Positions 46,286 to 47,441 of a DNA stretch of 47,470 nt are shown in pieces. A model generated the notes under the pieces. The model was not told the origin of the DNA, made no database searches, and saw only the letters and a program-made list of their open reading frames with translations. The first letter of the stretch is position 1. Every line of letters starts with the position of its first letter. This DNA is from Gammaproteobacteria bacterium (GTDB lineage: Bacteria; Pseudomonadota; Gammaproteobacteria; DRLM01). The translations under genes were made by a program, and so were the position numbers. The stretch lies in NCBI GenBank assembly GCA_011375345.1, contig DRLM01000121.1, forward strand, positions 1 through 47,470. Direction: 5' to 3'.

Positions 46286-46317
46286 ATTAACCCGGCAATT
46301 AGGATTGTCGGGTTAAT
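46286..46317. repeat. 32-bp palindromic element, left copy
   Basis: Arms ATTAACCCGGCAAT and ATTGTCGGGTTAAT around TAGG; only one position of the 14-bp arms fails to pair. The exact reverse complement occurs at 47410-47441, on the other side of anbu. It lies just after the anbu stop (46333, minus strand) and could also act as a transcription terminator hairpin. Confidence 0.85.
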
Positions 46318-46332
46318 AGTCAACCAGGTTTA

Positions 46333-47109
46333 CTAAGTGCCGGGTTGGTCCCGGCCGGCGCCGGTGCGGCCGTCGGGTGTTTCCCAGGGGAAGCGGGGCA
46401 GGGAGGCAAAGACGCGGCTCAGGCCTTCTCCCCACTGCTGTTGCAGCGCGGCGATGAAGGGGGCATCGGCCTGCAGGGTGAGCTGCTGTTGCAGGGCGAA
46501 CTCGCGTTGGGCGTAAATGGCCAGCTCCAGGGGCGGTCCCACAGAGAGGTTGCTGCGCATGGTGGAATCCAGCGACACCAGGGCACAGCGGGCGGCGTCG
46601 GCCAGAGAGGTCTGGGGCGTGATGATGCGGTCGAGAATGGGCTTGCCGTACTTGGTCTCGCCGAGCTGCAAATACGGCTTGCCGGGCGAGGCGGCGATAC
46701 AGTTGCCTTCCGGGTAGACCAGATACATATCATGGGCCTGGCCCTTGATCTGGCCCGCCACGATGAAGGTGGCTCCCAGGTTCAGCCCCTGATGCGGCGT
46801 TTTGTCACCGTGGGACTTTTGCACCTGGCAGCTCAGGCGGCCCACATAGTCGGCCGCGTCGGACAGATAGTCAACGGTGCGCAGGCTGGGTTTGGCGTGG
46901 AGATCGGCCATGTCCCGCTGCAACAGATTGATCACCGCCTGGGTGGTGGCCAGATTGCCGGCGCTCAATACCACGAACAGCCGTTCTCCCGGCGCGTTGA
47001 AGACATGCATCTTGCTGTAGACGCTGATATCGTCCAGGCCGGCGTGGGTGCGGGAGTCTGAGGCAAGCACCAGGCCGTCGTCCACTTTGATGGCTAAGCA
47101 GTAGGTCAT
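46333..47109 (-). CDS. Proteasome-like protease Anbu
   Basis: 258 residues from the ATG at 47109. Matches the bacterial proteasome-type family Anbu (COG3484), distant kin of HslV and the 20S beta subunits. The chain starts M-T-YCLAIKVDDGLVLASDSRTHAG: after Met removal Thr1 is the nucleophile, with Asp17 in ASDSR and Lys32 in YSKMHVF. LLSAGNLATTQAVINLLQRDM and LGETKYGKPILDRI are further family blocks. Elsewhere Anbu is encoded beside an ATP-grasp protein, an alpha-E protein and a transglutaminase; none of these is complete here, though a gene end just beyond (47437-47470) could belong to one. An upstream frame to 47247 has no homology and passes a terminator-like palindrome, so it is not used. 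The locus is bounded by inverted palindromic elements. Confidence 0.92.
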   Translation of the reverse strand: MTYCLAIKVDDGLVLASDSRTHAGLDDISVYSKMHVFNAPGERLFVVLSAGNLATTQAVINLLQRDMADLHAKPSLRTVDYLSDAADYVGRLSCQVQKSHGDKTPHQGLNLGATFIVAGQIKGQAHDMYLVYPEGNCIAASPGKPYLQLGETKYGKPILDRIITPQTSLADAARCALVSLDSTMRSNLSVGPPLELAIYAQREFALQQQLTLQADAPFIAALQQQWGEGLSRVFASLPRFPWETPDGRTGAGRDQPGT

Positions 47110-47436
47110 GGGCTGGATGGTTTGGTTTTGTCGGGTGGTGCTGTTGCGTCCCGCCGCGAAGCATTGCACCAGAAGCCATTGAGTGTAACAAAGCGGTGCG
47201 CGACGCAAAAAGAAACGGGGACGTCCCCGTCCCCCGCTGCATCCCATGTCAACACAGGCTTGTATTACCTATTAACCCGGCAATCAAACAGGTCGTCCTG
47301 ACCTGTTTGATTGCCGCCCGCGAAATACGGGCACCATTGTGCGAAATGGCTGGTATTTCGCGGGCTCGCATTGACTTGCGCCAATGGCGGCACATCCTTG
47401 TGCCGCGCTATTAACCCGACAATCCTAATTGCCGGG
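47110..47436. other. Palindrome-rich non-coding region upstream of anbu
   Basis: About 330 bases without a gene. It holds a terminator-like palindrome (47206-47230), most of the 171-bp element (47271-47441) with three further hairpins, and no clear sigma-70 promoter for anbu. Its base composition is more even than that of the genes around it. Confidence 0.6.
47206..47230 (-). terminator. Palindromic terminator upstream of anbu
   Basis: ACGGGGACGTCCCCGT (47215-47230) is a perfect palindrome; on the minus strand it is followed by TTCTTTTTGC. It probably ends the gene entering from the right edge, so anbu needs its own promoter between here and 47109. GGGGACGTCCCC cores are also common dispersed repeats in proteobacteria. 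Confidence 0.6.
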
Positions 47437-47441
47437 TTAAT
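47271..47441. repeat. 171-bp MITE-like element with 14-bp terminal inverted repeats
   Basis: Bounded by ATTAACCCGGCAAT (47271-47284) and ATTGCCGGGTTAAT (47428-47441), which are perfect inverted repeats. Inside are three further hairpins: a 16-bp stem at 47279-47315 (GGCAATCAAACAGGTC with its complement, 5-base loop), a 13-bp pair GCCCGCGAAATAC (47316-47328) / GTATTTCGCGGGC (47353-47365), and GCGGCAC/GTGCCGC (47387-47406). There is no coding frame. No clear target-site duplication is visible at the flanks. Confidence 0.65.
47410..47441. repeat. 32-bp palindromic element, right inverted copy
   Basis: Exact reverse complement of 46286-46317, including the asymmetric centre (CCTA here, TAGG there). 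It contains the stop codon of the gene entering from the right edge. Confidence 0.85.

Follow-up and report, generated by a model that had tools for sequence, protein, structure and literature searches.

The window analysed here, a stretch of 47,470 nucleotides of contig DRLM01000121.1 from a gammaproteobacterial genome (assembly GCA_011375345.1), carries close to its end an anbu-type proteasome-like gene situated between two forms of one repeat, a full element and a minimal form (Table 1). The full element stands approximately 160 bp upstream of anbu, and its sense strand is that of the gene. On this strand, the minus strand of the window, the hairpins follow one another in the order P0-H4-H3-H2-H1. 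The corresponding RNA is predicted to fold at -99.7 kcal/mol, compared to -54.4 ± 4.2 kcal/mol for shuffled sequences (z = -10.9). Two of the hairpins, H4 (core stem and loop GCAC-AAGGAU-GUGC) and H1 (core GGUC-AGGAC-GACC), present ANGGA-type loops, the signature of CsrA/RsmA sites. A preliminary description of this DNA had recognized the element, its 14-bp perfect ends and its 13-bp inverted repeat, and all three are as described. It gave one hairpin a stem of 16 bp; the hairpin is present, but its arms (H1) are 17 bp, one pair longer. Hairpin H4, which on the plus strand reads GCGGCAC ATCCTT GTGCCGC and turned out to be the most informative of all, had been missed, as had the palindromic nature of the right end itself, the GGA loops of the minus strand and the existence of a wider family.

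Table 1. Features of the element, its minimal form and the neighbouring gene, in window coordinates.
Feature	Position	Strand	Remarks
Full element, 171 bp	47271..47441	minus = sense (GGA-loop) strand	40 long matches in own genome; match to model R1
Left terminal inverted repeat ATTAACCCGGCAAT	47271..47284	+	left TA of the target at 47270-47271
Right terminal inverted repeat ATTGCCGGGTTAAT	47428..47441	-	14 bp, 100% complementary to left end
P0, 32-bp right-end palindrome	47410..47441	-	minus strand reads ATTAACCCGGCAAT TAGG ATTGTCGGGTTAAT
H4 hairpin GCGGCAC-AAGGAU-GUGCCGC	47387..47406	-	ANGGAN hexaloop with C-G closure = RsmA/CsrA consensus
H3 hairpin CATTGGC-GCAA-GTCAATG	47369..47386	-	
H2 hairpin, 13-bp arms GCCCGCGAAATAC / GTATTTCGCGGGC	47316..47365	-	smaller hairpin inside
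H2 arms (13-bp inverted repeat)	47316-47328 / 47353-47365		
H1 hairpin CGGCAATCAAACAGGTC-AGGAC-GACCTGTTTGATTGCCG	47278..47316	-	GGA loop; foot overlaps left terminal repeat
H1 arms, 17 bp each	47278-47294 / 47300-47316		loop of 5
Solo P0 palindrome, 32 bp (minimal form)	46286..46317	+	TA at either side
anbu-type proteasome-like gene	46333..47109	-	between minimal and full forms; Pfam PF00227, E 4.2e-6

The element is far from alone in its genome (2.68 Mb in 162 contigs). We found 40 long matches, full or partial, mostly at 96-99% identity and nearly all intergenic. At least 16 of these are complete or almost so, and the others are truncated or cut at contig ends, the latter because the repeat broke the assembly. 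Two contig-end pieces may represent a single insertion, and the true number of insertions is therefore somewhat below 40. A pattern search for the 32-bp palindrome gave 39 sites, compared to none in the control; many of them belong to full copies, as their right ends, and others stand alone. Together with the folding energy, the number of matches and the empty control place the repeat well outside what chance would produce. The palindrome on the other side of anbu had been read as the two outer ends of the element joined together. It is indeed a minimal form, but the sequence at 46286-46317 repeats the right-end palindrome exactly, in inverted orientation (46286-46319 agrees with 47408-47441 at all 34 bases), and is therefore not a junction of the outer ends. 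Six other solos have the fully symmetric GGCAAT version, which is what would arise if the DNA between the left terminal repeat and the right palindrome were deleted. In a minority of window-type copies the GGA of H1 is gone (AGCAC). Two TA-flanked mini-elements of 51 bp (L187 and L188) in this genome, G000, consist of the GGA hairpin H1 and the terminal repeats only. Elsewhere in it, two element copies are directly adjoined by palindromes with ends of a different type (CAGGATGTTGAAAAA...TTTTTCAACA). In seven of the 40 copies, a predicted gene stops right at the element, the terminal repeat supplying or overlapping the stop codon.

The many copies, the Y|TA|R targets and the solo right-end hairpin identify the window element as a MITE that occurs at full length and in a minimal form, as had been suggested. 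The general attributes of MITEs are all present: terminal inverted repeats, lack of a transposase gene and multiple near-identical copies. Nothing observed points to the REP element that had been offered as another possibility. REP elements are short palindromes with a GTAG-type tetranucleotide at the 5′ side and are associated with a TnpA_REP gene; by eye there is no GTAG at the foot of the hairpin. Among 29 window-type copies the left flank is YT|A in nearly all, and the right flanks start with AR after the terminal T. Such flanks (YT|A...T|AR) fit a TA duplication at Y-TA-R sites; as TA is self-complementary, a duplicated target looks the same in this type as a longer inverted repeat. Most copies read TAATAR at the right; the window copy reads TAATGC, and its right-hand TA is not preserved. 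The target duplication is thus ambiguous for the window type, but it is clear in relatives with GGAA ends (GGAANCTCTGA-type), where the 4-bp flank matches settle the matter. An exact 4-bp duplication was seen in 45 of 88 rows of flank pairs, compared to approximately 7 expected from shuffled pairs; the rows are not independent insertions, some elements being repeated on both strands or with one-base boundary shifts. The match extended over 5 bp in only two rows. The consensus of the duplication is YTAR, including the non-palindromic TCAG and CAAG. Members of the IS5 family produce a 4-bp YTAR duplication and have GGAA-type ends, and the GGAA-ended chassis agrees with these features in duplication length and consensus.

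There are a third and a fourth chassis. One has GAGGGTGTCGCAAA ends (genome G014), with TCTTA and TCGAA flanking two copies on both sides, by eye, and the other has CAGG..GTTGAAAAA ends (L080, L233 and L247). At L067:6280-6620 a GGAT-ended element is apparently inserted within a TTAACCCG-ended one, a nested pair of two chassis. A parental transposase with matching ends was not found in the window genome: its DDE_3 domains amount to one partial gene at a contig end, for which no match to the ends of the element was seen. This DDE_3/IS630 fragment (G000:C61:6-418), a candidate for the autonomous partner, is separated by 28 bp from an element copy with a deletion in the P0 hairpin. In plasmid relatives, the search used gave no terminal repeats. 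One complete genome (G024) holds tandem arrays of the core in units of approximately 116-124 bp (for example, at G024:13500-15000, with three other loci); two arrays are immediate neighbours of tRNA genes, and one of the two shares the strand of its tRNA.

The different chassis share one core. We built a covariance model, R1, on 25 varied relatives that all belong to other chassis, leaving out window-type sequences, and it nevertheless identified the window element as the sole significant match in the window (47280-47406, minus strand, 65.3 bits, E = 2.1e-15). The preliminary description had allowed for a structured element, and covariation among the relatives supports a conserved structure: RNAalifold found compensatory changes at 27 of 37 pairs in the alignment of relatives (A1) and at 20 of 46 pairs in the window-type alignment. 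The conservation of the loops was assessed with a search for the H4 stem alone, leaving all six loop bases free. GGA occupied loop positions 3-5 in 65 of the 69 hairpins listed from four genomes, and the N positions beside it varied freely. We set aside a larger figure (77 of 80), the loci of which had been fetched partly by GGA patterns, and for that reason used only the stem search on this point. Among 48 matches to the model, the GGA loop was present in H4 in 45 and in H1 in 47, compared to two each in H3 and H2. R1 itself favours GGA, but the listed matches appear to exceed the threshold by more than the GGA positions could add. Outside the class of the window, H4 stems are wholly different and C-ANGGAN-G is nearly always kept, as in the exchange of GCGGCAC-ANGGAN-GUGCCGC for GCGGCCC-AUGGAC-GGGCCGC. 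One relative (L237) has lost both GGA loops (AUGAAU and AAGAC) with its stems kept, and may be a dead copy. The inner loop of H2, AAAA-[UC]C[AG]C[AG][CU]-UUUU, is kept across classes in most relatives, and CsrA gives no account of it.

The RsmA consensus is A/UCANGGANGU/A. In H4 (CANGGANG with C-G closure), variation falls on the same positions as in the published consensus. A(N)GGA is the RsmA motif, and the hairpin loop of RsmZ-2, demonstrated to bind RsmA (PMC4066749), is identical to the H4 loop of the window, AAGGAU. Csr/Rsm-type RNAs are characterized by at least two hairpins whose loops are of the ANGGA type, and H4 and H1 supply them here. The nearest Rfam families over the elements are RsmW and RsmV, both RsmA-binding sRNAs. 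The best match to RsmW (RF02809) spanned the full length of the model at 37.5 bits (E = 2.9e-5) and did not reach the gathering threshold of 52 bits. None of the 369 sampled genomes exceeded this cut-off, and no control genome did so either, so that the zero does not prove absence. With all scores below gathering, RF02809 was rejected as the family itself; we claim no membership in it, and the likeness is one of architecture. RsmW is approximately 120 nt, derives from a 3′-UTR and binds RsmA with a Kd of 11.5 nM (PMC4950607). The two share this length and the GGA-loop hairpins, the core of the element aligning across the whole model, whereas RsmW was described as a P. aeruginosa sRNA gene and not as a transposable family.

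Other known systems resemble the element in part. TwoAYGGAY RNA (RF01731), for which Gardner and colleagues proposed CsrA binding on similar grounds (PMC4333381), and the CsrB/RsmX/Y/Z-type sRNAs (clan CL00106) also hold GGA in hairpin loops, but in a different order of hairpins. TwoAYGGAY was rejected as the identity of the element, as its near-threshold matches in Gilvimarinus fall outside the element and the layout differs. MITEs of the IS5-like (4-bp YTAR) and IS630-like (TA) kinds are likewise short, noncoding and numerous, with terminal inverted repeats and target duplications, whereas the present family has a conserved internal structured module common to chassis with unlike ends. QMITE1 and QMITE2 of Coxiella (PMC5896051) are gammaproteobacterial MITEs, often at the 3′ ends of genes and some of them a source of sRNAs; their direct repeats have other lengths, and CsrA is unmentioned in that paper. 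The 5′tnpA sRNA of IS200 in Salmonella (PMC12594629) is an IS-derived regulatory RNA that contains GGA motifs; its binding by CsrA is a suggestion only, and it belongs to a transposase mRNA and not to a MITE family. Literature on CsrA with MITEs or repeats, in a coverage that leaves out most subscription journals, described neither this family nor any CsrA-linked MITE. The family is widespread and apparently undescribed.

R1 matched 77 genomes, in 58 of 272 genera, among the 369 that made up the sample of the class, and 44 of 398 genomes in that of the phylum, 42 of the latter being labelled outside the class; at most nine matches were scored per genome, so that copy numbers are minimum values. 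Among the carriers with names are Gilvimarinus xylanilyticus and MAGs of Methylothermaceae and Cellvibrionaceae. Plasmids and phages gave no blastn matches to the elements, and viral contigs gave two matches, to H4 alone. CsrA is encoded in the window genome. In the phylum sample it was found in 42 of 44 carriers, compared to 178 of 354 non-carriers, a difference confounded by phylogeny; the genomes of the two carriers without CsrA are 74% and 69% complete. One carrier genome (G476) has nine CsrA-family matches.

These observations describe a mobile, non-autonomous element of conserved structure, with two fixed GGA loops on one strand and a core common to several chassis. One rival is a MITE that acts purely at the DNA level and has no RNA function: its hairpins and asymmetric loops would be recognized, in single-stranded or cruciform form, by a transposase or by a factor of the host. 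This would account for the clear target duplications. The upstream genes lie in the orientation of the element in 37 cases and opposite in 34 (71 scored, with gene calls by a simple script), and this lack of bias keeps the DNA reading alive. So do the stems, which are almost perfect palindromes with few G-U pairs (approximately 2.5%). G-U combinations outnumber A-C modestly, 56 to 33, and hardly do so in H4 or H1, in an alignment already biased toward pairing; we discarded this count as a weak test of strand, and the mild excess leaves room for a role of the DNA. Against such a role, the invariant loop positions coincide with the RsmA/CsrA consensus and exactly its N positions are free, the best Rfam relatives are RsmA-binding RNAs, and these loops are retained although the terminal repeats and the target duplications differ, which makes recognition by one transposase improbable. 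We therefore regard the DNA-level explanation as unlikely, while giving it some weight.

The two remaining alternatives fare worse. As a cis-regulatory cassette, the element would supply 5′ or 3′ UTRs with CsrA sites and be kept for regulating or stabilizing particular neighbouring mRNAs. The sense orientation of the window copy upstream of anbu, the copies at stop codons and the nearly exclusive intergenic location agree with this, but the orientation test over the 71 upstream neighbours lends a host cis-regulatory role no support, and the YTAR target preference alone can yield insertions at TAA and TAG stops; we consider the cassette very improbable. That the hairpins are meaningless, the GGA loops of an ordinary MITE descending unselected from one ancestor, is scarcely credible. 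MITEs often fold well, and the copies within a genome are young and almost identical, but across two classes the stems have been rewritten with compensation while GGA stayed constant in H4 and H1 and is missing from the loops of H3 and H2, and this contrast already contradicts that explanation.

We thus favour, as the probable reading, a family of non-autonomous transposons that carry a Csr/Rsm-type RNA module. A DDE transposase would mobilize the element in trans through its terminal repeats. The minus (sense) strand may be transcribed, by read-through or from a neighbouring promoter, and would then fold into the hairpins. The ANGGA-type loops of H4 and H1, approximately 70-90 nt apart, could be bridged by one CsrA dimer. 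Copies might titrate CsrA or put CsrA-bound hairpins into transcripts near the insertion, with a possible benefit to the element or to its host, and some copies could become fixed as sRNA genes. More tentatively, and with slightly more doubt than belief, we suggest a transposable Csr/Rsm RNA: a structured CsrA-binding module taken up by several unrelated chassis and disseminated in two or more classes of Pseudomonadota, which would act as a mobile CsrA sponge and be a possible source of domesticated sRNAs such as RsmW.

Many proteobacteria have a large fraction of their mRNAs under the control of CsrA, and the RNAs that antagonize it are known as a small number of dedicated genes in each genome. 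If the proposal is true, CsrA sites and decoys would be copied continually around genomes, Rsm and Csr sRNAs would have a testable origin, and the presence of several csrA genes in some genomes would have a possible reason. The family offers many naturally varied CsrA-type hairpins that are usable for binding studies. Mobile elements would, on the same proviso, interface directly with a global RNA regulator, and small transposons may spread ready-made regulatory RNA parts.
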